In this document: in pieces, positions 3,335-27,838 of the stretch
Numbering within the stretch: the first letter of the stretch is position 1
Layout: every line of letters begins with the position of its first letter
Assembly: GCA_937958885.1 (NCBI GenBank)
Contig: CALGMT010000013.1
Span: 1 to 64,000 of the forward strand
Origin: an uncultured bacterium
GTDB lineage: Bacteria; Verrucomicrobiota; Kiritimatiellia; CAIVKH01
DNA length: 64,000 bases
Direction of reading: 5' to 3'
Made by a program: the position numbers and the translations under genes
The notes under the pieces: generated by a model
What the model was told of the DNA's origin: nothing
The model's database searches: none
Seen by the model: only the letters and a program-made list of their open reading frames with translations

Positions 3335-5266
3335 TCAGGCGGACGGATCCTCCTCGCCTTCGCGGATGAGTCGAGCGCTGTTGAAGACGACGATGATCGA
3401 CCCGGCGTTGTGCGTGAGCGCGGCGAGGATCGGGTGCATCCAGCCCAACCCGGACAATGTGAGGCCGGCGATGATAAACAGACCGCCGATGGCGAGGTTC
3501 TGATAGACGACACTTCGCGCGGCGCGGGACAGGCGGATCAGGAATGGGAGGCGGCGCAGGTCGTTGCTCATCAGCGCGACGGTCGCGCTGTGAATGGCGA
3601 CATCGCGCCCGGCGGCGCCCATCGCGATGCCGGTATCGCTGGCGGCGAGGGCGGGGGCGTCGTTGACGCCGTCGCCGATGAAGGCGACGCGGTAGCCCTC
3701 GGCCTTCACGGCATTGACGAACTCGACTTTTTGCGCCGGCAGGCATTCGGCGCGCCACTCGATGGCGCCCGCGCTGCGCCCGATCTGCTCGGCGAGCTGG
3801 CGCGCGACGGCCTCGCGGTCGCCGGTGACCATCGCCATGCGGCGCACGCCGGGTGTCGCGGCGAGTTCCGCGAGCGCGGCCATCGCTTCCGGCCTCGGCT
3901 GATCGCGCAGTCCGATCCAGCCGAGATATCGGCCGCGGCGCGCGACGAAGATGACGCTCAAGGACTCCCCGCCCGCGCGGTCGTCCGCGTCGAGCGCGGG
4001 ATCGTCGATGCCGTTTGCGCGCAGCCATGCGGCTCGGCCGCAGATCAGCGCCTCGCCGTTTTCGGATGCGCGCACGCCGCGGCCGGGTTCTTCGTGGAAA
4101 TCCGACGGAGCGGGGGCGGACACGCCGGTGCGCTGCGCGAGATCGACAATCGCGCGAGCGGCGGGGTGCTGGCTCGGCTGCTCGGCGACGGCGGCCGCGC
4201 GCAGCAATTCGGCGGGCTCCACGCCTTCGCGCGGCGCGAGGCGCACGACGCCGAGTTCGCCGGTGGTCAGCGTGCCGGTCTTGTCGAACACCAGCGCATC
4301 GAGCCGCGCCGCGGCTTCGAGGTCCGCAACGTTTTTGACGAGGATGCCGCGCCGCGCGGCAGCGGAGAGCGCAGCGACCATTGCCGTCGGCATGGCGAGG
4401 ATGAACGCGCAGGGGCAGGAAATGACGAGAAGCGCCACCACGCGATCCCAGTCGTTTGTGAAGAACCAAACTAGCGCGACGAGCATGAGGACGGCGGGCG
4501 TGTAGTAGCCGACGTAGCGGTCCATGATGCGCATGACGGGCAGGCGGGTTTTTTCCGCGGCGAGAATCAGCTCGCGCACGCGGCCGATTGTGGTGTCTTC
4601 GCCCGCGCGGGTGACCTCGACCTCGATGGCGCCGGTGAGGTTTTGCGTGCCTGCGAAGACGTTATCTCCGGGCTCCCGATCCACAGGAAGGGACTCGCCG
4701 GTGATGGCCGATTCGTTCAGCGACGTGCGCCCGGCGCGGATGATGCCGTCCGCGGCGACATTATCGCCGGGCCGAATGCGGATGCGATCGCCGGGTTGCA
4801 ATCTAAAGGCCGGGACATCTTCTTCCGCTCCATCGGCTTTGACGCGCCGCGCCGTGGCGGGCGTGAGGCGGATCAGGCTTTCGATGGCGCGATGCGCGCC
4901 TTCGGCGGTGCGGGTCTCGATCACCAGCGAGAGCAGCATGAAAAAGGCGACGACGCCTGCGGTGCGGAAATCGCCCTGCGCCATAGCGGCGAGCACTGCG
5001 AGGGCAACGAGTTCGTCCATGTGCAGGTGCCCGCGCAGCAGGTCGCGGATCGCCGCCCAGAAGATCGGCAGCGCGAGGACGATCGCGCCGATCGCAGCGC
5101 TGATATCCGCGGCGAGCGGGTTGTCCGGATACACCCAGTCCGCGATATACGCGTTCACCACGAGCGCGGCGCCGGCGAGGAGCCAGCCGATGCGCACGGT
5201 GTGGTGCGCGTGATTCGCGCCCGGCGCGCCGCATCCACAGCCGGCTTGTTGGTCGGTGGCGCTCAT
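3335..5266 (-). CDS. P1B-type heavy-metal translocating ATPase
   Basis: SCPCAF, DKTGTLTTGE, QHPAA, GDGVNDAPALAASDTGIAMG; Cys/His-rich N-terminus CGCGAPGANHAHH. Start set at MSATDQQ (ATG 5266), overlapping the upstream stop by 4 nt. Confidence 0.93.
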   Translation of the reverse strand: MSATDQQAGCGCGAPGANHAHHTVRIGWLLAGAALVVNAYIADWVYPDNPLAADISAAIGAIVLALPIFWAAIRDLLRGHLHMDELVALAVLAAMAQGDFRTAGVVAFFMLLSLVIETRTAEGAHRAIESLIRLTPATARRVKADGAEEDVPAFRLQPGDRIRIRPGDNVAADGIIRAGRTSLNESAITGESLPVDREPGDNVFAGTQNLTGAIEVEVTRAGEDTTIGRVRELILAAEKTRLPVMRIMDRYVGYYTPAVLMLVALVWFFTNDWDRVVALLVISCPCAFILAMPTAMVAALSAAARRGILVKNVADLEAAARLDALVFDKTGTLTTGELGVVRLAPREGVEPAELLRAAAVAEQPSQHPAARAIVDLAQRTGVSAPAPSDFHEEPGRGVRASENGEALICGRAAWLRANGIDDPALDADDRAGGESLSVIFVARRGRYLGWIGLRDQPRPEAMAALAELAATPGVRRMAMVTGDREAVARQLAEQIGRSAGAIEWRAECLPAQKVEFVNAVKAEGYRVAFIGDGVNDAPALAASDTGIAMGAAGRDVAIHSATVALMSNDLRRLPFLIRLSRAARSVVYQNLAIGGLFIIAGLTLSGLGWMHPILAALTHNAGSIIVVFNSARLIREGEEDPSA

Positions 5267-6300
5267 TCGTGCGCCTCCGGGATCCAGCGCGGCGGCGCGC
5301 CGAAGTTGAGGCGGAGTTCCAGGCCTGCGTCGCGGTCGGGAACGAGCAGTTTGCGGCCCGCCCGCGCGAGCGCGTCGCGCAGCGCATCCTGGCGGAGAGT
5401 GTGCTCGACGAGGGCGGGATGTCGTCTCCACGCGTCGCGCAGCGCGGCGAAGGCGTCCGCCCGCGCGGCGACGGCGGACACGCGGCGCTGGCGGTCGGCG
5501 CTGCCCGCGGCGATGCGGCGGTCGGCCTCGGCTTCCGCTTCATTGGCTGTGCGCACTGCGAAGGCGCGCGCGTCGCTGATGAGCTGGTCGCGTTGCTGTG
5601 CGGATTGCGTGACCCTATCGAAGGCGGAAGCGACAGGCATCGGCGGGGCGATGCCGAGCAGGTCGACGCCTTGCAGACGCACGCCGAGATCGAGCGCGGT
5701 CAGACGCTCGCGCAGTTCCGATTCGACGGCGTCGCGGAAGGCGGCGACATCGGTGCGCAGCGCGCGGTCGATCGGGAATCGCGCGCTGACGCGGATCACG
5801 GCGCGGTCCAGTTCGTCGAGCAGCGTCTGCTCGGGCTGCGCGTAGCCGAAGATGTAGCGGTACGGATCGGAGACATTGTATCGCACGGCCCATCGGTGAT
5901 GCAGCAGGTTCGCGTCGCCGGTGAGCGCATAGCCGTCCTCGCCGGGGCGCAGTGAGCCGTGGTCCTCCGGCATGTCCTGAAATGGACTGGCGCGCCCATA
6001 CCAAAAGCGCCGGCTGGCGACCGATTGCACGCGTTCGGTCGGCACGCGAACGATTTCCGTGAATGGACGCGGCCAGCTCCAGTGCAGGCCCGGTCCTTTC
6101 ACGCGATCCGCGCCGACGCCGACGGGGCGTCCGAAGCGCAGCACAAAGGCGCGTTCGTGCTGGGGCACGATGAACACGCCGGAGGCGAGATAGGCGAGAA
6201 CAGCGAGCAGCAGGACGACGCGGAGCAGCCGGAACGTGAGGCGCAGCGCATCGCCGAGCGCTGCCGCGCCGGGGTCGGGGGTGGGGGGCGCCGCGCTCAC
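5263..6300 (-). CDS. SPFH/Band-7 protein, HflK-like
   Basis: One N-terminal TM then VPQHERAFVLRFGRPVG...GPGLHWSWPRPFTEI, A/E/R-rich coiled coil. GTG start, 4-nt overlap. Confidence 0.85.
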   Translation of the reverse strand: MSAAPPTPDPGAAALGDALRLTFRLLRVVLLLAVLAYLASGVFIVPQHERAFVLRFGRPVGVGADRVKGPGLHWSWPRPFTEIVRVPTERVQSVASRRFWYGRASPFQDMPEDHGSLRPGEDGYALTGDANLLHHRWAVRYNVSDPYRYIFGYAQPEQTLLDELDRAVIRVSARFPIDRALRTDVAAFRDAVESELRERLTALDLGVRLQGVDLLGIAPPMPVASAFDRVTQSAQQRDQLISDARAFAVRTANEAEAEADRRIAAGSADRQRRVSAVAARADAFAALRDAWRRHPALVEHTLRQDALRDALARAGRKLLVPDRDAGLELRLNFGAPPRWIPEAHE

Positions 6301-7217
6301 CGCTTGCGCTCCGGTGCGGGGGGCTGGGCTGCGGCCGGCGCGGCGGGCGCGAGTAAGAGATCAAACGGTTCCGTATCGGCGCTTAGCACGAGCGTGGCCT
6401 GATCGCCGATCGTGTCGCGCAGTGCGTCGAGCTTGCGGAGGAAGAGCGCGAGTTCGGGGTCCTGCGCGAAGACCTGGTAGTGCGCGGCGGCCTCCGCTTC
6501 GCCTTCCGCGCGAAGCCGGCGGGCCTCCGCGTCGGCGCGCGCGAGGAGTTGATCTCGCTCGCTCTCGGCGCGCGCGCGAATGCGGACGGCCTCGCCCTCG
6601 CCTTCCGAGCGGTAGCGCTCGGCGATCTCCTGCCGTTCGGCGCGCATGCGTTCGAATACGGATTGCGCAATCGATTCGGGCAGACCGAGCTGCCGTATGC
6701 CGACAAAGGCGACCTCGATGCCGTAACGGCGGAGGGCCTCCGGCCGAATGGCCTCGAACACGCGCTGCTCGATCTCATCGTGTTTCAGCGCGGACGCTTC
6801 GACGTTGACGAGTTGCGCGAACGCGATTTTGCCGAGCGCGGCGTTTTTGTGCGTGCGCATCAGACCATCGAGGCTGATCTCCGCTTGCTGCACCGTGCCG
6901 AGGCGCTCGAGGAACAGCACCGGGTCCGCGATGCGCCAACCGCAATACAGCGCGACGAGCACGTTCTTGCCATCTGCGGTAAGTGTTTCCTCGAAGGCGC
7001 CCTGTAGCGTGTGGAGGCGCGCGTCGAAGCGATGGATCCGCTGGATCGGCCAGGGAATACGCGTGTAGAGGCCGGCCTCGGTCAGTGTGCGCTCGGGGCG
7101 TCCGAGCCGGGTGACGACCGCCGCTTCGCCTTCGCGCACGATGAACACCACCTGCAACGCGGCGAAGAGCAGCGCGAGGGCCAGGCCTACGATCAGCGGG
7201 GTACGTTTCGCATTCAT
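6297..7217 (-). CDS. SPFH/Band-7 protein, HflC-like
   Basis: MNAKRTPLIVGLALALLFAALQVVFIVREGEAAVVTRLGRPERTLTEAGLYTRIPWPIQRIHRFDAR; coiled coil EAVRIRARAESERDQLLARADAEARRL. Confidence 0.87.
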   Translation of the reverse strand: MNAKRTPLIVGLALALLFAALQVVFIVREGEAAVVTRLGRPERTLTEAGLYTRIPWPIQRIHRFDARLHTLQGAFEETLTADGKNVLVALYCGWRIADPVLFLERLGTVQQAEISLDGLMRTHKNAALGKIAFAQLVNVEASALKHDEIEQRVFEAIRPEALRRYGIEVAFVGIRQLGLPESIAQSVFERMRAERQEIAERYRSEGEGEAVRIRARAESERDQLLARADAEARRLRAEGEAEAAAHYQVFAQDPELALFLRKLDALRDTIGDQATLVLSADTEPFDLLLAPAAPAAAQPPAPERKR

Positions 7218-9067
7218 GGGTGCAGGTCTCCAGGCGATAGCGGGGCCAGCTCGTACAATTCCGGGAAGGCGGATTTCTTCAGGTCGAAATACATCACCTG
7301 CTTCGCGCCGCGATGGGCGACGATTGTGAACGAGCGGCGGTCGAGCGCCTCTGCGAGCGCAGTGAGCTGCAAATCCTGGCGCAGGACGAACGGGGCGGTT
7401 GCGTGCGCCTCGCGCAAGCGGGCGAACAATTGCGCCTCCGCGCCGGCGCGTTCGCGCAGCTCCGTCCGGGCCGCTTCCGCGTCCATGCGGCGGCGTTCGG
7501 CTTCTGCGGCGGCGCGCGGGCCGATCGAAGCGGCGTAGGCGCGCGCGCCGAGCGCGTTCGCCTCTTTCATCTCGAGCGCGCCGATGACGGATTGGAACGC
7601 CTCGGCGACGGTCACGGGCGGGTGAATGCCCTGCCCGCCGACGAAGAGGATTTCGACGCCGAGCGCGTGGCGGTCGGCCTCCGCTTGGAGCGCGGCGCGG
7701 ATCGAGTCGCCGAACGCGATGCGCTCGCCGCCGAGCAAGTCCAGCAGGTCGCGTTGCGCGAGTGTGCGCGTCACCGTGCGGTACGCGCAGTCGCGCAGCA
7801 GCGCGGCAGGTTCGCGATGGCGGTAGGCGTGGTCCAGCAGGTTCGTGATGCGATACTCGATCGGCATGTTGAGCGAGACGAGGCTGACAGATACTGCCTC
7901 GCGGTCGTCGCGCGACCCCGCGGCGCGCGCCGCCGTCACGAACACGTCCTCGTCCGCGTAGTGCGGCACGTTCCACAGGATCGTGTCGGGCCGCATCTCG
8001 CGCGGATCCGGGCGAAAGCCGACGTCAATGCGCTGGATGCGTTTTGCGGGCAGGCGCTTGATCGATTCGAACGGCCACGGCGCTTTCAGGTGAAAACCGC
8101 TTTCCATCAACCACGCGCCATCGAGCGGGCGTCCCCAGCGCTCGCGAATGCCGGCTTCATGCGGCGCGATGAAGACGAGGCACGAGAGCGCATACATCAG
8201 CAACGCCTGGAGCAAGAGCATCGGCAGCAGCGCGCGGCGCAGGAAGCGGCGCATCGCCTCGTGGCCGGCCTGCACGCCGAATTGATAATCGAGCGACGAG
8301 GCGATGGTGCGGGTCCACGCCGCAGGATCGGTCAACCACGCTGCGAGGCGGCTTTCGATCGCGGGCGCGCGGCGGCGAGCGGGCACATATAGACCCGCGA
8401 TCACGAGCGCGAGTTGCTCGGCGGCGAGGAGTGCGAGCAGGCCGATCAACACGCGAGACCAGACGCGGTCCGGCATGCTCCAACCGAGATGCGCGGCGAT
8501 CGCAACGGCCGCGCCGGCGAAGGCGGCGAGCGCGAAAATGCCCAGCGCGATGCCGGGCGCGCGCGCGTACGCGGCTTCGCCTATCCGCGCGAGGCCGATC
8601 AGATAGCGGCTCAACAGGAAAAGAACGAACGCTTCGCCGAGCAGGAACGCCGCGGCCGGCAAGGGGTGCTCCGGCGCCGGCGCAAGCGCGAGATCGGCGC
8701 GGGCGAGGAACCACGCCCATGCGCCCAGCCCCGCCGCGAGGAGGAGCGCGAGCGCGGGAAGCGCGAAGCGCTCGAATTGTTCGGCGGATCGCGCGGCGGA
8801 AAACGGTTCGGTTTCACCCTGCGCGAAGAGGGCCGCATCGCTGCGCGCCGATGCGCGGGTGCGGTCCTGCTCCTCCTCGCGCGCGCGGTGCGCAAGGTTC
8901 GCGCGGATCAGCGCCGCAATGGCCAGCACGGCGCTCCACGCGGCGAACGGCGCGAGCGCGTCGAGAAACGTCAGTTCGGTGCGCGCCGCGAGCAGCGCGT
9001 TCACCCCGCCGAAGAGGCCGGCGATCGCGCCCGCGGCAAGCAGTATGTTTTCGGAGGCCGACTTCAT
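7214..9067 (-). CDS. SPFH/Band-7 protein with an additional multi-TM N-terminal region
   Basis: Start MKSASENILL (ATG 9067). Several hydrophobic segments over about 300 residues, then IAPHEAGIRERWGRPLDGAWLMESGFHLKAPWPFESIKRLPAKRIQRIDVGF (SPFH). Confidence 0.8.
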   Translation of the reverse strand: MKSASENILLAAGAIAGLFGGVNALLAARTELTFLDALAPFAAWSAVLAIAALIRANLAHRAREEEQDRTRASARSDAALFAQGETEPFSAARSAEQFERFALPALALLLAAGLGAWAWFLARADLALAPAPEHPLPAAAFLLGEAFVLFLLSRYLIGLARIGEAAYARAPGIALGIFALAAFAGAAVAIAAHLGWSMPDRVWSRVLIGLLALLAAEQLALVIAGLYVPARRRAPAIESRLAAWLTDPAAWTRTIASSLDYQFGVQAGHEAMRRFLRRALLPMLLLQALLMYALSCLVFIAPHEAGIRERWGRPLDGAWLMESGFHLKAPWPFESIKRLPAKRIQRIDVGFRPDPREMRPDTILWNVPHYADEDVFVTAARAAGSRDDREAVSVSLVSLNMPIEYRITNLLDHAYRHREPAALLRDCAYRTVTRTLAQRDLLDLLGGERIAFGDSIRAALQAEADRHALGVEILFVGGQGIHPPVTVAEAFQSVIGALEMKEANALGARAYAASIGPRAAAEAERRRMDAEAARTELRERAGAEAQLFARLREAHATAPFVLRQDLQLTALAEALDRRSFTIVAHRGAKQVMYFDLKKSAFPELYELAPLSPGDLHP

Positions 9068-10029
9068 CCGCGCAGTTCCATGCGGCGAAACGCGAATATA
9101 CCGATGGACAGGATGCCGGCCAAGTAGAACACCGTGTAGGTTCCGACGCGCGCGACATAGGACCACGGGACGCCATCCCCGGCGAGCGCGTCGGCCGCCC
9201 AGAAATGTTGGAAGTTCGGGGTGATGCCATCAAGCAGCGCGTACACCGGGCTGTGCGCCGCCTGGCGGCCGAACAGGTAATCCGACATCAAGCCCGCCAT
9301 CAGGATCACGCTGCTGACGACGAGCGCGGGCACGATATCGAGCCGGGTCGCCAGCGCGAGGGCCAGGCCGGCCAGCAGCAGAATCGCCAGCGCGAGCAGC
9401 GCGCCGGCGGGCACGATGCCGAGCGGCAGCGAGGCGCCCCACGTGTCGGGGTCGCCTTCCGCCGGAAACGCGCCCGATACTGCGACGGCCGCGGGCGCGA
9501 GCACGAGGAGGGCGCCAAAGGTCTGCGACGCGAAGGGGCGGCGGAAGAAAAAGTTTTGCGCGCCGCCCGCTGCGAGCGCGAGCACGACCGCTATGAATAG
9601 AGGACCGGAACCCATCAGATCATACACGAAGGGCACGGCCGCCGTCCGGGTGGCCAGGAGGGCCGCGCACGTCATCATCAGCGAAAAGGCTGCCATTACG
9701 AAGGCGATACCGGCAAACTTGCCGATAAAGAAAATCGTGCGGGGCACCGGTTTGGACAGAACGGCGGACGCCGTACCCCCGCGCAATTCTGCGCGTAGCG
9801 CAGTGCAGGCCGTCAGCACGCCCAGCACGAGGCCGAGGACAAAGTGCAGCGCGAGCGCGCTGTCGCGCACCAGCCGGTCCGCGTCGTTGAGCGTGTGGGT
9901 GAAGAGAAACGGCATCAGGCCAACGAATACAAGCGCCGACGCGGTTAGCAATGCGGCAATTGGCTGGCGCATAGCTTCCAGCGCGGTCAATCCCGCAATC
10001 GTCATGCCCTGTCGAACCATCAAGCGCAT
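9064..10029 (-). CDS. ABC-2-type transporter permease-like membrane protein
   Basis: About six TM segments; FVLGLVLGVLTACTALRAELRGGTASAVLSKPVPRTIFFIGKFAG resembles ABC-2 permeases. No ATPase adjacent. Confidence 0.65.
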   Translation of the reverse strand: MRLMVRQGMTIAGLTALEAMRQPIAALLTASALVFVGLMPFLFTHTLNDADRLVRDSALALHFVLGLVLGVLTACTALRAELRGGTASAVLSKPVPRTIFFIGKFAGIAFVMAAFSLMMTCAALLATRTAAVPFVYDLMGSGPLFIAVVLALAAGGAQNFFFRRPFASQTFGALLVLAPAAVAVSGAFPAEGDPDTWGASLPLGIVPAGALLALAILLLAGLALALATRLDIVPALVVSSVILMAGLMSDYLFGRQAAHSPVYALLDGITPNFQHFWAADALAGDGVPWSYVARVGTYTVFYLAGILSIGIFAFRRMELRG

Positions 10030-10095: not shown

Positions 10096-10253
10096 CTCCT
10101 CTTCCCGTGGCGCCCGCTTGCGAACGTCCGCGTCAGTCGGTGATCACGCATGGAAAAGTGCAACGGGGTGCGCCTTGACGGGGGCGGGCGTGAATGGCAG
10201 CATCTCCACTCCGGTGTGCGGCGGAAAGAGCGCCCGCCCGGGCGGACGCGCGC

Positions 10254-11420
10254 ATGTCTATTCGGGCATTTCTGGAACGGTCCGAGGCGTATATTCTCGG
10301 AGTCATCGAGGATCGCCTCCACGGCTTCTGGGCCGGCGTCCTGCGGGTGTTTCTTCGGGCGCTTTCCCTGATCTTTCACGTACTCGTCCAGTTCCGCCTG
10401 TGGCTCTATCGCACCGGCATTTTTCGACCGCACGCGCTCGGCTGCCAGGTGATCAGCATCGGAAACCTCACGGTCGGCGGAACGGGAAAAACCCCCATCG
10501 TCGAAGTTTTCGCCCGCACCTTGCAACAGAGCGGACGCAAGGTGGCCATCTTGAGCCGCGGCTACCGCAAGGAGGAGGATCCGTTTCTCACGCGCCTCTG
10601 GCGTCGGCTCACATTCGACGTGCAGGAAAGCCCGCCGCGCGTGGTCTCGGACGGCAGGCATCTGCTGCTGGATTCGGCGATGAGCGGCGACGAGCCGTTC
10701 ATGCTCGCGCAAAATCTACCGGAGGTGGCCGTGATCGTGGACGCGAACCGCGTGAAGGCGGGAAAATATGCGGTCAAAAAACTCGGCTGCGACACGCTGA
10801 TCCTCGACGACGGGTTCCAATACCTGCATCTGAAGCACCGGCTCGATATCGTGCTGGTGGACCGGACGAATCCGTTCGGCAATCGACGGCTCCTGCCGCG
10901 CGGCATCCTGCGCGAGCCGATCTCCAACATCAACCGCGCGGGTTTTATTTTCATCACGAAGTCCAACGGCGACGGCGCCGCCGAACTCAAGCAGACGCTG
11001 CGCCGCCACAATCCGCATGCGGAAATCTCAGAGTGCCGCCATTCCGCGAAGTATTTGCAGGACATCTACACGAAGGAGCGCGCGCCCCTCGACTATCTCA
11101 AGGGCTTGCCCGTTGCGGCGGTTTCCGGCATTGCGTCCCCGAAGGGCTTCGAAGACGAGCTGGTCCGGCTTGGCGCGCGCGTCCTCTATCACAAACGCTA
11201 CGCGGATCATCACCGCTACACGCAGCTCGAAATCATCGATGTGATCAACAAGGGGCTTCAGCGCGGCGCGAAAATCGTCGTCACGACGGAGAAAGACGCG
11301 GTGCGCTTTCCGATGCTGGAACGCCGCGACTTGCCGCTATATTTTCTGCGTGTGGAAATCGAAATGCTGACCGGCGCCGAGGAGTTCCGTGCCTGGATCA
11401 ACCGCATCTGCTTCAAGTGA
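10254..11420 (+). CDS. lpxK: Tetraacyldisaccharide 4'-kinase
   Basis: [52 protein letters not shown]. Confidence 0.93.
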
Positions 11421-12396
11421 CGGCCCGCTGCTGGTCGTCGGCGTCAACTGGATCGGCGATGCGATCATGAGCATGCCGGCCCTGCAGGCATGGCGTCGCG
11501 CGCACCCCGCCGCGCGGCTCGTGCTGCTGACCAAGCGCGCGCTCGCGCCGCTTTGGGCGCTGCATCGCGCGCCGGACGAGGTGCTGACCTACGACAATCC
11601 GCTGCCGGCGATTCGCGCAGCCGCCCGCGAGATCGCGCGACGCGCGTGTGCGCGCGCGGTGGTCCTGCCGAATTCCTTCCGATCGGCGCTGCCGCCCTTC
11701 CTCGCGCGCGTGCCGGAGCGCGTGGGCCGCGCGGGTCATTGGCGGCGTCTGTTGCTCACGCGCGCATTGCCCGCGCCCGCCCCGGGCCATCAGGCGCTGG
11801 AGGCGTTCGAGTTGTTCGATCTTCCGCGCCCTGCCGGGGCGATCGAAGCGCCGCAGATCGAAGTGCCGCCCGACGCGGCGGACGCGGCAAGGCGGAGGCT
11901 CGCCGCGCTTCCGCGCCCGATCCTCGGTGTAATGCCGGGCGCTGCGCGCGGTCCGGCCAAGCGTTGGCCCGCCGCCCATTTCAGCGCCGTGGCCAAGCGT
12001 TGGGCCGCCGGGACGGGCGGCGGCGTCCTGGCGATGGGCGGCGCCGGCGATCGCGCGGCAGCCGAGGAGGCGCTTGTGGACGTGCCGCGCGCGTTGAATT
12101 GCGCGGGCGAAACGTCGTTGGTCGAATGGGCGGCGCTGCTGCAGGCGTGCGACGCGGTCGTGTGCAACGACAGCGGCGGCATGCATCTCGCCGCCGCGAT
12201 CGGACGTCCGGTTGTGGCTGTATTCGGCGCGACGGATCCCGCGGTCACCGGTCCGATCGGACCGCGCGCGCGCGTAGTGGCCGATGCGGGCGCGCGATCT
12301 CGCGCGATTGCGCGGAATGACGCAGAGGCCGAGAAAAGACTCGCGGCAATTTTGCCCGAGCGGGTATATGCTGCTCTGTTCGAATTGATGAAATGA
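11389..12396 (+). CDS. waaF: Glycosyltransferase family 9 (ADP-heptose:LPS heptosyltransferase II type)
   Basis: VGVNWIGDAIMSMPALQAWRR, LPNSFRSALPPFLA, GVMPGAARGPAKRWP, CNDSGGMHLAAAIGRPVVAVFGATDP. Confidence 0.88.
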   Translation: MPGSTASASSDGPLLVVGVNWIGDAIMSMPALQAWRRAHPAARLVLLTKRALAPLWALHRAPDEVLTYDNPLPAIRAAAREIARRACARAVVLPNSFRSALPPFLARVPERVGRAGHWRRLLLTRALPAPAPGHQALEAFELFDLPRPAGAIEAPQIEVPPDAADAARRRLAALPRPILGVMPGAARGPAKRWPAAHFSAVAKRWAAGTGGGVLAMGGAGDRAAAEEALVDVPRALNCAGETSLVEWAALLQACDAVVCNDSGGMHLAAAIGRPVVAVFGATDPAVTGPIGPRARVVADAGARSRAIARNDAEAEKRLAAILPERVYAALFELMK

Positions 12397-13172
12397 GCGC
12401 TGTGCCCAAAATCTCCGCCTGTGTCACGACCTTCAACGAGGAGCATAACATCCGGCGTTGCCTCGACAGCGTGCGCTGGTGCGACGAGATCGTGGTGGTG
12501 GACAGCTTCAGCAGCGATCGAACCGTCGACATCTGCAAGGAATATACCGATCGAGTCTATCAGCACGAGTGGCTCGGCTACATCGGGCAGAAGAATCTGT
12601 GCCGGAAGCTCGCCTCGCACGAGTGGATTTTTTTCATCGACGCGGACGAGGAGGTGTCGCCGGAACTGCGCGAGGAAATCCTGCGCGAGTTGGCCGCCAA
12701 CAACGGGCGTTATGCGGGCTATCGTTTTCCGCGCATGGTAAACTACATCGGGCGCTGGATTCGCCATGGCGAGTGGTATCCCGACATCAAACTGCGGCTT
12801 TTTATGAAAGCGCGCGGGCGCAGCGGCGGCACCGAGCCGCACGACCAGGTATTCGTCGACGGCGACGTCAAAACGCTCCGCGGCAAATTATACCACTACA
12901 CCTACGACGATTTGCATGACCACCTTGAGACGATGAACCGGTTTTCGAGCATTACCGCGCAGGAGAAGTTCCGGCTCCATGCGCGCTTTGCCTGGAGCGA
13001 TTTTCTCTTTCGTCCGGCCTTCCGCTTCTTCAAAGCCTACCTCCTGCGCGGCGGCTTTCTCGACGGTCGGCGCGGCTTCCTGATCGCGCTCGTCAGCGCA
13101 TTCGGCGTCTGCATGAAATACGCCAAGCTGTGGGAGCTGGAATATCGACGCGACTCGACGGCGAAGTCATAG
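12393..13172 (+). CDS. Glycosyltransferase family 2 (WaaE/KdtX-like)
   Basis: ISACVTTFNEEHNIRRCLDSVRWCDEIVVVDSFSSD, WIFFIDADEEVSPEL, KLYHYTYDDLHDHLETMNRFSS. Confidence 0.88.
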   Translation: MSAVPKISACVTTFNEEHNIRRCLDSVRWCDEIVVVDSFSSDRTVDICKEYTDRVYQHEWLGYIGQKNLCRKLASHEWIFFIDADEEVSPELREEILRELAANNGRYAGYRFPRMVNYIGRWIRHGEWYPDIKLRLFMKARGRSGGTEPHDQVFVDGDVKTLRGKLYHYTYDDLHDHLETMNRFSSITAQEKFRLHARFAWSDFLFRPAFRFFKAYLLRGGFLDGRRGFLIALVSAFGVCMKYAKLWELEYRRDSTAKS

Positions 13173-13173
13173 C

Positions 13174-14241
13174 ATGGCCGGCGGAAACAATCTCTTGTTT
13201 CTGGAAAAGGCATTCCTGCGTCCGCCGCCGGAGCCGCTGCGCGGCGTCGAATTGTTTAATCTTGAACTGATCGAGGAGATGATTGCGGCGGGTTGGTCGC
13301 TTACAATCCCGGCGCACGCGGCATGGCGACCGCACTTCGAGGCGCGCGCGCCGATGCGCGCCGCCCGCTGTGTCTTTTTTCGCTCGCGCGGCGTTTGGGT
13401 CTTGTGGCGATGGCGGAGGATGTTGAGCGGCGAACGCTATCGCGCGCTGTTCCTGGCCAATGTCGGGAACGGGCTGATTCCGCTTCTCCACCTGCTGAAA
13501 TGGAGCGCGGCGGCAGATCGGCTGGTCCTGCTTGCGCATCGGACAGCCACGCCGCGGTTCTTGCGCGCGCTGCGCGCATGGCCCTCGTGGATTGTCGCGG
13601 TCAATCGGGTCATCGCGCGGCAATTTCGGGATGCCGGCTATCGGCGCGTGGCCGTGGATTACGGCGTCATGAAGGCGGAGCGCTATTTCCCGGCCAATCG
13701 ACCCGCGCGCGATCGCATCCGGTTCGTCGTGCTCGGCGCACTGGATATCGCGTGGAAAGGCGCGGATACGGCCATCGCAGCATTTCAGCGATTGCCGCCG
13801 GACCTTCGAACCCGTTGCGAATTACACCTGGCCTCCTACGTGCAGCCGCCCCAGATTGGCGTCGATGGCGTGATCGCGCACGCGTGGAAACCCGATGAGT
13901 CCATCCCTGCGTTTCTTCGCGAAATGGATGTCATGATCTGTCCCTCCCGCGACGAGCACATCATGCGCGAGACCTTTTCGCAGGCGATCGTGAAAGGGAT
14001 GTTGACCGGACTTCCGATTGTGGCCAGCGATCTGCCCATCTATCGCGAAAAACTGGATGCGGGCGGCGGGCTCCTGTTTGCCGACGTCGGCAATCTTGCT
14101 GAAAAAATGGCGCGCATGGCCTCCGATCCGGCGGCGCGCGCAGAAATGGGCGCGGCAGGGCGCGCGACTGCGCTGGCACGCTATTGCTGGGACACGCGCC
14201 AGTTTTTGAAGCGCTACGTAGAGGCGCCGCTGGAATCGTGA
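13174..14241 (+). CDS. Glycosyltransferase, GT4-like
   Basis: GALDIAWKGADTAIAAFQRLPPD, ICPSRDEHIMRETFSQAIVKGMLTGLPIVASDLPIYRE. Confidence 0.8.
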   Translation: MAGGNNLLFLEKAFLRPPPEPLRGVELFNLELIEEMIAAGWSLTIPAHAAWRPHFEARAPMRAARCVFFRSRGVWVLWRWRRMLSGERYRALFLANVGNGLIPLLHLLKWSAAADRLVLLAHRTATPRFLRALRAWPSWIVAVNRVIARQFRDAGYRRVAVDYGVMKAERYFPANRPARDRIRFVVLGALDIAWKGADTAIAAFQRLPPDLRTRCELHLASYVQPPQIGVDGVIAHAWKPDESIPAFLREMDVMICPSRDEHIMRETFSQAIVKGMLTGLPIVASDLPIYREKLDAGGGLLFADVGNLAEKMARMASDPAARAEMGAAGRATALARYCWDTRQFLKRYVEAPLES

Positions 14242-16415
14242 GACGCTTTGCCCAGATGATCGGCCCGTATGCCGGCGCGGTTGCGCCCGCTTTTGACGAT
14301 GCCGAGCTGCGAGAATGGCTCGGCGCGATCCGGGCGCATACGGCGAACGCGCCGTCGGCTGTCGCGCATGCGGGTTCGCGGATCGTTGCGCTCGACGCGC
14401 CGCGCGCAGGTGGCGTTGTGCCGTTGCTGATTCGCGTCGGCGCGCCGCTGGCGGGCATCGCCGCGTGGGGCATGAAGTGGAAAGGCACGTCGGAAGCGCG
14501 CGCGTGGCGCGCGGCGCGCCGACTTTCCGATCGAGGCGCGCCGACGCCCGCGCCGGTCGCCTGGCTGGAGCGCTGGGAGGGCGGGCGATGCCCGGAGCGC
14601 TACTTCATCACGCGCCGCATCGAACCGGTGACCACCATGCGGGACGCGCTCCGGCATCTGCTTGAGCACGATCCGGATTGCGGGCGTATCATCGCGTTGC
14701 TGGAGACGATTGCGCCCGCCGTGCGCGCCATGCACGAGGCCGGCGTGCTGCATCGCGATTTGGGCAATCAGAACATCCTGCTTTCGCCCGACGGCGCCGG
14801 CGGATGGCGGGATCCCGCCATTATTGATTTGAGTCGGGCCCGCCTGCTGGATGCGCCGCCGGACGCCGCGTCGCGCGGGCGCGATTTGGGGCGGCTCTGG
14901 CTTCCGACCGATTTGCTGCGCGTGTTTTGCGAGATGTATTTTGCAGGTCGACCGCCGCCGGCATTCGCGAAGGCTCTGCGCGCCGCGCGCCGGCGATATG
15001 CCGTCCACGCATGGTCCCGCGCGATCCGCCATCCCATTCGAGAGGCGCGGGTGCGCCGCGACCCCGCGCGCCGGCAGGTCTATCCGCCGCCGCGCGAGAT
15101 TTGGATTTGGGACGAAAAATCCGCACAGCCGATCAACGCATGGGCGAGCCGAGAGCGGAACCGAATGCACCCGTTCTCCAACCACCTCCGTGCCGCGCGC
15201 GCCACGCTCGCCCATCTCCCCGGCATCCTGCGTTCCTATTCTGCGCTGCGGAGCGGCGCATTTCTCCAGCCGCTTGCGCTGCGCGGCGCATGGGGCATTG
15301 CGGTCGAGCCGCGCCCCGAAAGTTGGGAGATTGAGCGGGCGTGGATCCCTGCGATTCCGGGGTTGCCTGTGTTGATTCGTCTGTATCACCACAAGGGGCC
15401 GACGCAATGGACCTTCGCCGCGGACGCGGGCCGCCGGTTGCACGAGAGCGGCCATCGCGTGAGTTTTGCGCTTTGCCAGGACCGTCGCGCAGTGCGGGAC
15501 CCCGCCTCGTGGGCGGCGATGTGCGAACAGGCGGCGGGCGCGATCGGCGATTTCGCCGAGTGGATCGAAGTCGGGCACGCGGTCAATCGCGTGAAATGGG
15601 GCATTTGGAATATGCGCGATTACGGCGCGCTGGTCGCGCCTATCGCGCGCCTGGCTCCCCGTTACCCCGCCGTTCGCTGGATGGGCCCCGCGGGGATCGA
15701 TTTCGAATATCCGAAAGTTTTGTCCGCATTGTCGGCGATGCCGGAGGGGTTCCGGTTTCACGCGTTGTCGCATCACCTGTATGTCGATCGGCGAGGCGCG
15801 CCCGAAAATCCGCAGGCCGTCTTCGCAACGATTGAGAAACTTGCCCTCGCGCGCGCGATGGCCCGCGCTTCGCAGCGCTGCGAGGATCGATTGATTGTGT
15901 CGGAAGTGAACTGGCCCCTGCTCGACACCGGCGTGTATTCGCCGGTCGGCTCCCCGTATACCCATCCCGGGCAGGCGCTGGGCGCGCCGAACGTGTCCGA
16001 AGACGTCTATGCCCGCTACATGATTCGATATCTGCTCCAGGCCGCGTGCAGCGGGTTGGTCGAACGCGTGTACTGGTGGCGGCTGGCCGCGCACGGATTC
16101 GGCTTGGTGGACGAGCGCGCGACGCCGTGGCGCCCGCGTCCGGCCTATCGCGCGTGGGGTCGGCTGCTGGAGCTGTTGGGCGATGCTGTTTTCGAACGCA
16201 ACGCGTCCACGGGCGAGGGGGCCTATCTCCATCTCTTCCGGCGTCCAGACGGCGAGCGGATGGCCGTCGGCTACGCATGGATACCCGGCGGCGCGCCGTT
16301 CGATCTGCGGTGCGCGCGCGCCGAGGACATGGAGGGCCGCGCGCTCGACCGTATGCCCGATCGGCTGGGCGACGCGCCGGTCTATTTCCGCTCGGTAGAC
16401 GCGGCGCCTTCCTGA
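14238..16415 (+). CDS. WaaP/InaA-like LPS kinase fused to a C-terminal glycosidase-like (TIM-barrel-like) domain
   Basis: N-term kinase: MKWKGTSEARAWRAARRL, MHEAGVLHRDLGNQNILL, IIDLSRARLL. C-term: RWMGPAGIDFEYPKVLSAL, LIVSEVNWPLLDTGVYSP, VYWWRLAAHGFGLVDE...WRPRPAYRAWGRLLELLG. GTG start at 14238 overlaps the upstream stop by 4 nt. Confidence 0.7.
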   Translation: MRRFAQMIGPYAGAVAPAFDDAELREWLGAIRAHTANAPSAVAHAGSRIVALDAPRAGGVVPLLIRVGAPLAGIAAWGMKWKGTSEARAWRAARRLSDRGAPTPAPVAWLERWEGGRCPERYFITRRIEPVTTMRDALRHLLEHDPDCGRIIALLETIAPAVRAMHEAGVLHRDLGNQNILLSPDGAGGWRDPAIIDLSRARLLDAPPDAASRGRDLGRLWLPTDLLRVFCEMYFAGRPPPAFAKALRAARRRYAVHAWSRAIRHPIREARVRRDPARRQVYPPPREIWIWDEKSAQPINAWASRERNRMHPFSNHLRAARATLAHLPGILRSYSALRSGAFLQPLALRGAWGIAVEPRPESWEIERAWIPAIPGLPVLIRLYHHKGPTQWTFAADAGRRLHESGHRVSFALCQDRRAVRDPASWAAMCEQAAGAIGDFAEWIEVGHAVNRVKWGIWNMRDYGALVAPIARLAPRYPAVRWMGPAGIDFEYPKVLSALSAMPEGFRFHALSHHLYVDRRGAPENPQAVFATIEKLALARAMARASQRCEDRLIVSEVNWPLLDTGVYSPVGSPYTHPGQALGAPNVSEDVYARYMIRYLLQAACSGLVERVYWWRLAAHGFGLVDERATPWRPRPAYRAWGRLLELLGDAVFERNASTGEGAYLHLFRRPDGERMAVGYAWIPGGAPFDLRCARAEDMEGRALDRMPDRLGDAPVYFRSVDAAPS

Positions 16416-17287
16416 TCCGCCGGTGGGCGCGTGCGCCAGCGTTTGTGGATCCAGGTCCATTGATCGGGGTGCGCGCGAATGATCCGCTCCAGGATGGCTG
16501 TATAGCGCTGCGTATAGACGCGGATCGTGTCTTCGCTGCGGTCCGGCGGCGGCTCGACCGGCGACTCGATGTGCAGCGTGTGCCGACCGTTCGGCGCGCG
16601 GATCATGTAGACCGGAAGCACCGGGGTCCGCGCGACGCCGGACAGGTACGCGAGGCCCGGCGTGGTGCAGGCCGGCTGTCCGAAGAAATCGACAAAAATG
16701 CCGCGATGCCGCCGCATGTTCTGATCCAGAATCAGGGCCACCACCTCGCGGCGGCGCAGCGCCTTGATGCAGTCGCGCATCGCATCGTCGCGCGGCAGCA
16801 GATGCAGCCCCATGCGCTCGCGCGAGGCGCGCCAGTAGGCGTCGAGCCCAGAGCCGCCGAGCGATTTGACCACGACGTGGACCGGCCGCCAGATCGCGGC
16901 GGCGACCAGCCCCATCAACTCCCAATTCCCGATGTGTCCCATCAGAACCAGCGCGCCGCCGCCCCGCGCGCGAACGGCCTCGACATGCTCGCGGCCCACG
17001 ATGTCCACCCGCTCGACGAACGCATGCGCGCGGCTACCCGAAAAATGCAGGCACTCCGCGATCAACAGGCCAAAGTGCCGATACATCGCGTCCGCGATCT
17101 GCGGCGCTTCCGCCGCGCGTTCCGGCAGGCATCGCGCAAGTGTGTGCAACACCAACGCACGCCGATGGCGAATGACGCGGCCGAGCAGGAACCCGATCCC
17201 GCGGCCGAACCCGAGCGCCGCGCGCGTGGGCAGCGCGCGAAAAGCCGCCTCCAGGCCGCGCAACAAAAGCACCGTGGGTTTCGGCAT
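16382..17287 (-). CDS. Lipid A acyltransferase (LpxL/HtrB family)
   Basis: LVLMGHIGNWELMGL, LILDQNMRRHRGIFVDFFGQPACTTPGLAYLS, HPDQWTWIHKRWRTR. Confidence 0.88.
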   Translation of the reverse strand: MPKPTVLLLRGLEAAFRALPTRAALGFGRGIGFLLGRVIRHRRALVLHTLARCLPERAAEAPQIADAMYRHFGLLIAECLHFSGSRAHAFVERVDIVGREHVEAVRARGGGALVLMGHIGNWELMGLVAAAIWRPVHVVVKSLGGSGLDAYWRASRERMGLHLLPRDDAMRDCIKALRRREVVALILDQNMRRHRGIFVDFFGQPACTTPGLAYLSGVARTPVLPVYMIRAPNGRHTLHIESPVEPPPDRSEDTIRVYTQRYTAILERIIRAHPDQWTWIHKRWRTRPPADQEGAASTERK

Positions 17288-23878: not shown

Positions 23879-24631
23879 ATGTCTACTAGAACTATCAAAT
23901 TCTATCTCATCGCTACGTTGCTTTCTGCAGCTTCTATCACGCGCGGTGACATTGTTGCTCAATGGACGTTCGAAAACACGAACAACTTGCTTGCCGCCAT
24001 CGGTTCCGGAGTTGCCTCGAATGTCGGAGGCACCACCACGGCGTTCGCAGGTGGGCAGAACAGTACGTACGCCTGGAATACGTCCCAGTATCCTGCGCAG
24101 GGTAATGGATCCGGCACTGCCGGCGTTTCGTTCTACGTGGATACGACAGGCTATCAGGACATCATCTTTTCATACAACCATCGCGCGTCGGGGGCCGCCT
24201 CGCGCTGGGCGCAAATCGACTACACGCTCGACGGCGGCGCGAACTGGGTGACGGGTTACTGGACCAACAGCGGGGCGCTCTCTCCCCACGACACCTTTTA
24301 CTCCAATAACGTCAGCTTCGTTTCCGTGACCGGCGCGAACAACAATCCCAATTTCGGCGTGCGCGTGGTGTCCATTTTCTCGCCGGTGCCATTCGATCAA
24401 AATGCCACGCTGCCCGATTACGGCGCGAATGAAGCCTATATGCGCGCGAACGCGCAGGCGAGCTATACGCCGGGCGGCGGAACCGGCACCGGCGACTACA
24501 GCTCGAATGGCACGTGGCGCTTTGACAATGTGACCTTTAACGGCAGCGTGGTTCCCGAGCCGGGCACGGCGCTGCTCTTCCTCGGCGGTCTGGCGCTTTG
24601 CGGCTGGGCGCGGCGGCGCAGCCAGAACTGA
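23879..24631 (+). CDS. PEP-CTERM sorting domain-containing secreted protein
   Basis: Signal peptide; C-terminus VVPEPGTALLFLGGLALCGWARRRSQN. Confidence 0.9.
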   Translation: MSTRTIKFYLIATLLSAASITRGDIVAQWTFENTNNLLAAIGSGVASNVGGTTTAFAGGQNSTYAWNTSQYPAQGNGSGTAGVSFYVDTTGYQDIIFSYNHRASGAASRWAQIDYTLDGGANWVTGYWTNSGALSPHDTFYSNNVSFVSVTGANNNPNFGVRVVSIFSPVPFDQNATLPDYGANEAYMRANAQASYTPGGGTGTGDYSSNGTWRFDNVTFNGSVVPEPGTALLFLGGLALCGWARRRSQN

Positions 24632-24655
24632 TTCCCATTTCGAGAGGATCGTCGG

Positions 24656-25417
24656 ATGGATGCCCCAACCAAGGGCTATCGCGGATTCACGCTGATCGAG
24701 CTGCTGGTGGTCATTGCGATCATCAGCGTGCTCGCGGCGTTAATCTTTCCGACCGTCGGCGCTGCGCTGGCGCGCGGACGCGCGACCTCCAGTCTGTCGA
24801 ATTTGCGCCAGTGGGGCATGGCGATTCACCTTGCGCTGGCGGATCGGGACGACCAGCTCCTGCCGTGGGATGGACCCGACAACGTGTCGGGCGCTATGAC
24901 CAACATGACGTGGTGGGCCAACATGCTGCCTCCGTATGTCGGCCAAAAGACGTATCTCGACATCAACAAGGATTCGATGGGCCAGAAAGTGCCGCTCCCG
25001 CCTGAGAAAAGCATTTTCATCGATTCCTACGCCAAGCGTCCCGCCAACGCCCCGCACAAATCGGGACAATTCTCGTTCTTCTTTTGCTATGTCATCAACT
25101 CCAAGTTGAACCAATCGCTACCGCCCGGCCAGCGCGTATGGATCGGCAGCATCCCGCGTCCGTCCCAAACGGCGGTCATGGTCGAGATGCGTACTGTTCC
25201 CGAAGAGCTGCCCGCCGGCGACCCGCACCGCAGCGCATCGCTCGATCGGGCGAAGGCCGATTGGCAGCGTTTCGCTGCGCGCCATCGCAACGGCGGTCAT
25301 ATTGCGATGGCCGACGGCTCCGCGCGCCACTTTGAAAACAAGTATGTCACGACCCCCGTGGGCGGAAACTACAACAAGGACGACATCGTCTGGAACCCGC
25401 TCGGAACAGCCAATTAA
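24656..25417 (+). CDS. Type II secretion pseudopilin-like protein
   Basis: N-terminal [24 protein letters not shown] prepilin motif; C-terminal [23 protein letters not shown]. Confidence 0.9.
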
Positions 25418-25432
25418 CAAGGAGCTCCCGCT

Positions 25433-27838
25433 ATGAAACGCCTCGCCCTCATCCTCGCCCTTTCAATGGTCGGCCTGTCGGCCCGTTCCGCGACGATTAC
25501 CGAGTGGAATTTTGATGCCACGAACCTGGTTGCCAACATTGGAAGCGGAACTGCGACGAATATCGGCGGGACTTCGACGGCCTTCGCGTCCGGCAATCCG
25601 GGGCAGGGCTGGAACACGTCATCGTATCAACCGCAGTTCACCAACTCCGGAACGGCCGGCGTCGTGTTCTATGTGAGCACCGTGGGCTTTTCAAATATTG
25701 CCGTTCGCTTCGACCACCGCGCCTCGGGCACCGCGTCGCGCTGGGCCCGATTGGAATACACGACGGACGGCGGCGGAACCTGGGTACCGTTCTGGACCAA
25801 TAACGGCGCCCTCTCGCCGCACGACACCTTCGTGAGTTTCACCAATATTTCGTTCGCCGCCGTGCCATCGGTGAATGACAATAGCGAATTCGGGTTCCGC
25901 ATCGTTTCCATCTTCTCGCCGGTCCCGTTCACCGATGAGTTCGCGGGCAGCCAGCCGGCGGATACCGCATATCACCGCGCGCGGGTCAGCGGCGGCTCCA
26001 CATATGGAACAGCCGGCACTTGGCGCTTCGACAACGTGCGGATCACGGGCGATGCGATTTCCTCCGGTCCCTCCCTCTACGCCACCAACAGCGCAGTTCT
26101 CATCAACGAGGTGCTCGCCAATCCGATCGGCACCGACGACTCGCGCGAATATATCGAACTCATCGGCCCGCCCGGCGCGTCGCTCAATGGGTTGACGATT
26201 CTCGAGGTTAGCGGCAACGGCACCAACATCGGGAAAGTCTTCCTGGCGCGCGATCTCACCGGCGCGTCGCTCGGCGCGAACGGCCTGCTGCTGATCGGAG
26301 AAAACTACCAAAGCTTCTGGCCCGCCTGGACTTCTGTGCCGCCGGCGACCGCGCTGCTCGATATGAACCACCCGCGCGGCCGGATCGACAATGACACGAC
26401 GACCTTCCTGCTGGTCACCAACTTCACCGGCGCCGCATTCGATGACCTCGATACGAACGACGACGGCACGTTCGACACGACGCCGTTCGACCTGATCCTC
26501 GACAGCGTCGGCTGGCTCGACGGTTCTACGGGCGATCGCGTCTATTCGCCCGCGTCACTGACGCAGTCCTCCGGCACGCCGGATGCCGCGACCCGCATCC
26601 CGACCAACGGCGCGCCGAACGCGCTCGCCGCCTGGTACAACGGCGACCTGATGACCAATGTTATGGACACCGCCGGCATCACCTACAATCCATTCAAAGC
26701 GTCCGTCCTTCCGCTGGGCGCAAAGTTGACGCCCGGCGAAACCAATCACTGGAGCACCGCAAGGCAGCCGCCGCTCATCGCGCCGCTGGCCGATCGCGTG
26801 GTCAAACTCAGCAATACCGTGGTCGTTTCCGTCAATGCGCTGGCGACGGACGGCGATCCTGTCACGCTCGCGCTACAAAGCGGGCCGTCGGGCGCATCGT
26901 TCGGCTCGACTGGAACCGTCGGCGCGATGACGTGGTTCGCGGCTCCGACCGGCGTGTACACCGCCGTCTTCACGGCGACGGACGTCGATGGCGTTTCGAC
27001 CGCCTCCATGCAGATCATTGTGCAGACCGCCGCGGTCGCCACGATTCGCATCACGGAGGCTATGTCCAAGAGCCAGCATCCGGCGAATCGCGATTGGTTC
27101 GAGATCTACAACTACGGCAATGAGCCGGTCGATCTAACCGACCTCTCGTGGGACGACGACAGCAACCTCCCCGGCAGTGCGCACTTCAATGGCTATATAA
27201 TTCCGCCGGGCGGCACCTACGTGATTTCCGCGCGCCTGGTGGGTACGGAGGACATCTTCCGCCAGGAGTGGGGACTTCCCGCCACGGCGGCGGTGTGGTG
27301 CGCCGGCAGCGCCGTGTTTCAAAACTTCAGCTCCGCAGGCGACATGATTTACATCTACGACGCCTACGGCCTCGAAATCACCAGCGTCGTAATTCCTCCG
27401 GCGACAGTCGGCTTCTCCTTCGAATGGGCGGGCGACGGGTCCAGCCTCGGCTTGAGCGTCGCCGGCGAAAACGGCGCGTATGTCGCGCCCGACGACGGCA
27501 CGGGCAACCCCGGCATCGATGTCGCGTCGCCGGGTTTCGCATTGCCGGCGCATCCGACCAACGACAGCGACGGCGACGGCATGACCGATCTGGAAGAGTG
27601 GATCGCCGGCACCGATCCCAACGATCCGAACGATTACTTCCGTTGGTACGGCGTCGGCGGCGTCCCCTCCGTCGGCTTGGTCAGCGGCCGCTGGTATGAA
27701 GTCCAGAGTACGACGAATCTTCCGTCCGGCGCGTGGAATACCGTGACCAATTTCATCGCGCCGTCTAATCTCCTGTGGCAATCGGTCGGCGGGACGAACA
27801 ACCTGGAAATGCTACGTATTCGCGTCTCCCGGCCGTAA
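25433..27838 (+). CDS. Secreted protein with lamin-tail-like (LTD) domains and an N-terminal domain paralogous to the PEP-CTERM protein
   Basis: VLINEVLANPIGTDDSREYIELIGPPGASLNGL and RITEAMSKSQHPANRDWFEIYNYGNEPVDLTDLSW; Ca-binding type DSDGDGMTDLEEWIAGTDPNDPND. Confidence 0.85.
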   Translation: MKRLALILALSMVGLSARSATITEWNFDATNLVANIGSGTATNIGGTSTAFASGNPGQGWNTSSYQPQFTNSGTAGVVFYVSTVGFSNIAVRFDHRASGTASRWARLEYTTDGGGTWVPFWTNNGALSPHDTFVSFTNISFAAVPSVNDNSEFGFRIVSIFSPVPFTDEFAGSQPADTAYHRARVSGGSTYGTAGTWRFDNVRITGDAISSGPSLYATNSAVLINEVLANPIGTDDSREYIELIGPPGASLNGLTILEVSGNGTNIGKVFLARDLTGASLGANGLLLIGENYQSFWPAWTSVPPATALLDMNHPRGRIDNDTTTFLLVTNFTGAAFDDLDTNDDGTFDTTPFDLILDSVGWLDGSTGDRVYSPASLTQSSGTPDAATRIPTNGAPNALAAWYNGDLMTNVMDTAGITYNPFKASVLPLGAKLTPGETNHWSTARQPPLIAPLADRVVKLSNTVVVSVNALATDGDPVTLALQSGPSGASFGSTGTVGAMTWFAAPTGVYTAVFTATDVDGVSTASMQIIVQTAAVATIRITEAMSKSQHPANRDWFEIYNYGNEPVDLTDLSWDDDSNLPGSAHFNGYIIPPGGTYVISARLVGTEDIFRQEWGLPATAAVWCAGSAVFQNFSSAGDMIYIYDAYGLEITSVVIPPATVGFSFEWAGDGSSLGLSVAGENGAYVAPDDGTGNPGIDVASPGFALPAHPTNDSDGDGMTDLEEWIAGTDPNDPNDYFRWYGVGGVPSVGLVSGRWYEVQSTTNLPSGAWNTVTNFIAPSNLLWQSVGGTNNLEMLRIRVSRP

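Follow-up and report, generated by a model that had tools for sequence, protein, structure and literature searches.

An open reading frame of 725 codons in the 64,000-nucleotide stretch of DNA analyzed here (the window), from a Kiritimatiellota-type bacterium, encodes a protein in which a WaaP/Kdo-type kinase domain is followed by a TIM barrel of clan GH-A. We propose, at about even odds (a probability of roughly 0.5), that this fusion is a cytoplasmic LPS-core modification protein, in which a WaaP/Kdo-family sugar kinase is joined to a clan GH-A barrel that has been repurposed to recognize or position the nascent core.

A single reading frame with two domains in an LPS gene cluster

The first-pass annotation of this DNA had described a single kinase-barrel fusion inside an LPS cluster, and this description holds: the frame runs for 725 codons without a stop, and genes for LpxK, WaaF, GT2 and GT4 glycosyltransferases, and an LpxL-type acyltransferase adjoin it (Table 1). 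The start codon of the frame, a GTG, and the stop codon of the preceding GT4 gene lie in a 4-nt overlap (GTGA); an in-frame TTG lies further upstream at 14184, and the alignment of relatives begins at the GTG. At the other end, the LpxL-type gene and the fusion overlap by 34 nt. The motifs quoted in the annotation are present in the translation: HRDLGNQNILL at residues 172 to 182, DLSRARLL at 197 to 204, LIVSEVNWP at 552 to 560, YWWRLAAHGFGLVDE at 612 to 626, and PRPAYRAW. No signal peptide is evident by eye, as had also been noted, nor is a hydrophobic N-terminus.

An AlphaFold model of the fusion, computed with an alignment of 64 sequences, reached a pLDDT of 93.7 and a pTM of 0.91. It places a WaaP-like kinase at residues ~46 to 300 and a clan GH-A TIM barrel with a C-terminal beta-sandwich at ~346 to 720, and the helical linker between them agrees with the domain boundary proposed earlier (residues 290 to 340). 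Pfam annotation reveals the kinase half alone, as no Pfam family covers the C-terminal half of either the window protein or the 64 relatives scanned.

Table 1. Coordinates of the fusion gene, its domains and the adjoining LPS genes in the window
Feature	Coordinates	Strand	Basis
LpxK (tetraacyldisaccharide 4'-kinase)	10194..11420	+	PF02606, E=4e-84
Heptosyltransferase II (WaaF, GT9)	11389..12396	+	TIGR02195, above cut-off
GT2 glycosyltransferase	12393..13172	+	PF00535
GT4 glycosyltransferase, overlaps fusion gene	13174..14241	+	PF13692/PF00534
Whole fused ORF, 725 aa	14238..16415	+	GTG start, 4-nt overlap with upstream GT4 stop; full-length relatives
WaaP/Kdo-type kinase domain, ~residues 46-300	14373..15137	+	PF06293, Foldseek 6dfl, alignment columns
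Helical linker, ~residues 301-345	15138..15272	+	AlphaFold secondary structure
Clan GH-A TIM barrel + C-terminal beta-sandwich, ~residues 346-720	15273..16397	+	AlphaFold, Foldseek, alignment columns
Barrel beta-4: GHAVNRVKWG (H447, A448, N450, R451, K453)			
Barrel beta-5: GPAGIDFE (D488, E490)			
Barrel beta-6: LYVDRRGAPE (Y515, D517, R518, E523)			
Barrel beta-7: SEVNWP (E556); beta-8: YWWRL			
LpxL-type lipid A acyltransferase, convergent, downstream	16382..17287	-	PF03279, E=3e-56

LPS genes also accompany the fusion outside the window. Glycosyltransferase or LPS assembly/export genes lie near it in 46 of 80 relatives' loci, many of which are short contigs. The family of the GT2 gene is present in 20 relatives' loci, directly 5′ of the fusion in 10; LptF/LptG genes occur at four gammaproteobacterial fusion loci, and MsbA-like genes are found near the fusion in some other relatives. 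The gene for the Kdo transferase WaaA lies in another part of the window's genome. Together, the five LPS genes of the window, the genomic WaaA and the LPS genes near relatives' fusions support a role in the LPS core.

Sixteen relatives' loci contain a CPBP/Rce1-like gene, which lies immediately 5′ of the kinase-barrel gene in 13, and two loci encode a CPBP/Rce1-like membrane protease that is itself fused to a Kdo/WaaP kinase domain (L106:1628-3514, plus strand; L107:5292-7121, minus strand, the latter confirmed by Pfam). Elsewhere in the window, three SPFH/Band 7 proteins are encoded in succession (5263-9166, minus strand) beside a P-type ATPase (3335-5431) and an ABC-2-like permease (9064-10029), and genes for a PEP-CTERM protein, a prepilin-like ORF and a large lamin-tail-domain protein follow one another at 23879-27838 on the plus strand.

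The barrel keeps most of a clan GH-A active site and lacks the acid/base Glu

Foldseek searches of the C-terminal half against the PDB recovered clan-A enzymes of GH30, GH53 and GH51, identifying a (beta/alpha)8 barrel of clan-A type, in line with the earlier expectation of a TIM-barrel fold. Because no solved structure matches the barrel sequence better than E=1.4, its assignment to the clan relies on this fold comparison and on profile matches that lead to secreted glycosidases. Secreted relatives from the same phylum match the C-terminal part of the barrel over 135 columns (E=3.4e-16); they carry YWEVWNEAN or a near variant at beta-4, and three of the four have TEFSWP or TEVGWS at beta-7. 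Strand ends in the barrel were read off the predicted secondary structure.

The Glu of LIVSEVNWP, singled out earlier as a candidate catalytic residue, is E556, which sits at the end of beta-7 in the nucleophile position and is invariant in all 64 aligned members. Equally invariant (64/64) are N558-W559-P560, R381, H447, Y515, W613 and W614, as well as the basic and acidic pocket residues, and residues 346 to 650 hold 36 invariant positions in all. The beta-4 Glu that acts as acid/base in clan-A enzymes (the E of "NE") is absent from every family member with a readable motif. Position 447 is His in 64 of 64 aligned members, and position 448 is Ala in 60 and Glu in none; of 96 distinct kinase-barrel ORFs, 87 have HA at the two positions (87/92 readable), three have HV, one has HG and one has HT, with four unreadable. 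More distant fusions with reversed domain order have S/A-T at this pair and have also lost the beta-7 Glu, which is replaced by His or another residue; the residue equivalent to 447 is S or A in these proteins and Q where the two domains are encoded by a split gene pair. Both the window group and the reversed barrels share N450-R451-x-K/R453-W454, D488-F-E490 and D/E517-R518.

Profile alignment places EIGSTCN of the reversed barrels opposite EVWNEAN of the secreted glycosidases, and, because the window group aligns in turn with the reversed barrels, H447-A448 occupies the place of NE in true clan-A enzymes. Since the acid/base Glu is missing, the sequences make a classical retaining hydrolase unlikely. 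A pocket lined with new conserved residues suggests that the barrel was recruited for a new ligand, which could plausibly be an acidic or phosphorylated core sugar.

The kinase half is less constrained than the barrel

PF06293 (Kdo/WaaP) matches the window protein at residues 84 to 220 (E=5e-13; 49.4 bits against a curated cut-off of 21.3) and matches all 64 family members scanned (E<=0.1). Among PDB folds, the N-terminal half matches WaaP (6dfl; Foldseek E=2.5e-11, probability 1.00), PRPK and Rio1; the score against NF011703, the equivalog model of WaaP heptose(I) kinase, is 41.9 bits, below its cut-off of 170. Catalytic residues present in the window protein are HRD at 172 to 174 (D174), N179 and the DFG-like Asp D197.

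The ATP-anchoring Lys of beta-3 is replaced by R66 in the window protein and is Lys in the other 63 of the 64 aligned members; L003 also carries Arg there. D174 is replaced in three of 64 relatives (L060, L065 and L098), all of one clade and all retaining the barrel residues. Mean identity to the window protein is 50.8% for the barrel versus 40.5% for the kinase, the barrel being higher in 63 of 63 comparisons. Judged from these alignments, constraint on the kinase half is weaker than on the barrel, and its catalytic residues appear to erode in places. In Pseudomonas aeruginosa WaaP, neither K51A, at the Lys equivalent to residue 66, nor D163A supported growth (PMC6147952). No second PF06293 domain that might compensate for R66 was found in the window's genome, which is ~88% complete. 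The earlier suggestion that this half could phosphorylate the core is thus borne out as far as the WaaP fold, D174 and D197 go and is not assured in this genome: with R66 and no second domain found, activity is likely by fold and uncertain in fact. Phosphorylation of a core sugar is the predicted role of the fusion kinase.

The two domains are paired across phyla and in two orders

A search for the same fusion in relatives, proposed in the first-pass annotation, recovered it over most of its length in 22 of 58 related genomes, and a scan limited to a single genome for each species returned 229 encoding stretches. The best 80 of these belong to Kiritimatiellota, Lentisphaerota, Verrucomicrobiota (including Akkermansiaceae), Gammaproteobacteria (Cellvibrio, Marinimicrobium and other Pseudomonadales) and a small number of bins whose label is uncertain; the reading frame is uninterrupted in most, and a few have an internal stop. 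Overall, 96 distinct kinase-barrel ORFs were collected from Kiritimatiellota, Lentisphaerota, Verrucomicrobiota and Gammaproteobacteria. Two separate proteobacterial sets are nested in the tree among Verrucomicrobiota and Kiritimatiellota rows, a placement that would fit lateral transfer but is not proof of it.

Seven more distant ORFs (L101, L102, L103, L104, L146, L147 and L151) have the reversed order, with the barrel first and the kinase last, and the two barrel types match in a profile comparison over 348 columns (E=5e-33). In L141 and L142, closely related genomes whose DNA is 92% identical, kinase and barrel are two separate, overlapping genes, the barrel gene having a plausible TTG start within the overlap with the kinase stop and AAGGAG ahead of it. 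The existence of two fusion orders and of an overlapping gene pair argues that the pairing is under selection and that the two activities would work together.

Other arrangements were also observed. The kinase-barrel proteins at L149:3082-4989 and L152:4531-6639 (both on the minus strand) lack E556 and most pocket residues and form a decayed third group. In one genome, a kinase of the fusion subfamily stands alone (L108:2321-3208, plus strand), and another contig encodes a reversed-type barrel in an ORF of 600 aa with no detectable kinase (L145:6967-8769, plus strand).

Possible functions of the fusion

Under the explanation that we favor, a conserved pocket of the barrel, predicted to comprise N450, R451, K453, D488, E490, D517, R518 and E556, would capture and position either a sugar precursor or the growing lipid A-core oligosaccharide, and the kinase would then phosphorylate a core sugar brought to it in this way. 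Where the kinase is eroded, possibly also in the lineage of the window, the barrel would carry the main function. The barrel is probably a module for sugar recognition or unusual chemistry and not an ordinary glycosidase. Several observations count against this explanation. WaaP and KdkA function without any barrel. The invariance of E556 and the 36 invariant positions look more like catalysis than binding. By analogy with K51A, which abolishes growth of P. aeruginosa (PMC6147952), R66 in the window protein also speaks against a working kinase.

In a less likely alternative, the barrel would be an active enzyme of non-classical chemistry with E556 as its nucleophile and would glycosylate or remodel the core sugar that the kinase phosphorylates. 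A good leaving group (sugar phosphate, nucleotide or lipid phosphate) could make the Glu acid dispensable, or H447, D488 or D517 could act as acid/base. Retention of most of the clan-A active site and the consistently higher conservation of the barrel would agree with such an enzyme. However, the NR.[KR]W, DFE and [DE]R pocket survives in the reversed fusions, which have lost the beta-7 Glu, so E556 would not be needed for the function common to both clades, and H447 is likewise replaced in the split pair and the reversed fusions. We consider it rather unlikely that the barrel represents an LPS-core enzyme of a new type, namely a cytoplasmic clan GH-A fold without the Glu acid/base whose E556 attacks an activated or phosphorylated sugar, in one chain with the kinase that makes or reads that phosphate.

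The first-pass annotation had instead envisaged a bifunctional protein, a kinase plus a glycosidase that could trim or proofread the nascent core. Its two folds were recovered, with a Glu in the nucleophile position, and in a related genome a GH2 enzyme that retains its NE and E motifs is fused to an LPS-kinase domain (L105, 1328-4426). Ordinary trimming or proofreading is nevertheless improbable, given that the acid/base Glu is missing familywide while homologous secreted glycosidases retain it. The separate overlapping genes of one distant lineage (L141/L142) might hint that two genes were joined here by assembly error or frameshift, but such an artifact has next to no probability: 96 distinct ORFs from several phyla are mostly without internal stops, and open full-length relatives in tens of genomes, with no frameshift, rule it out.

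Core LPS assembly is usually viewed as the work of glycosyltransferases and stand-alone kinases, and no earlier description of such a kinase-barrel fusion was found in the open-licence literature. A kinase joined to a glycosidase-derived barrel, kept across phyla and in both orders, would suggest that LPS biosynthesis in the PVC group and some Gammaproteobacteria includes a step, or a control of specificity, that has yet to be described. Carriers include, by record title, Cellvibrio sp., Marinimicrobium sp. ABcell2 and Kiritimatiellota bacterium B12222, in which the fusion may be testable in culture.

Comparison with known systems

The window protein resembles the LPS core heptose(I) kinase WaaP/RfaP (PF06293; PDB 6dfl) in its kinase fold, its HRD and DFG-like Asp motifs and its LPS cluster. 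It differs in carrying a fused barrel, in the Arg at the place of the beta-3 Lys, and in the Mg-binding Asn (N179), which WaaP lacks; the alpha-C Glu of P. aeruginosa WaaP (E78) appears opposite a non-Glu position in the fusion.

With retaining glycosidases of clan GH-A (GH30 Xyn30D/XynC, GH53 and GH51), the fusion shares the (beta/alpha)8 barrel, the beta-7 nucleophile Glu, the C-terminal beta-sandwich, and Arg on beta-2, Tyr on beta-6 and Trp on beta-8; by sequence, it is linked to GH39/GH42-like proteins of the same phylum. Unlike these enzymes, it has HA for the acid/base NE on beta-4, a new conserved set (NR.KW, DFE and VDRRGAPE), and a cytoplasmic kinase at its N-terminus in place of a signal peptide. 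Myrosinases (GH1, with Gln as acid/base) and the pseudo-glycosidase Klotho are also clan GH-A folds with an altered catalytic Glu, but they belong to unrelated families and contexts and have no kinase.

Six loci besides L105 have GH2 genes that lack a kinase close to the fusion. At L105:1328-4426 (minus strand), a GH2 beta-galactosidase-like enzyme carries a Kdo/WaaP kinase domain at its C-terminus (assigned by Pfam as GH2 and PF06293), and the adjoining gene encodes a reversed-type barrel that is truncated at the end of the contig. Like the window protein, the L105 fusion joins a PF06293 kinase to a glycosidase TIM barrel; unlike it, the barrel is a GH2 enzyme with NES and SEC motifs, and the kinase is C-terminal.
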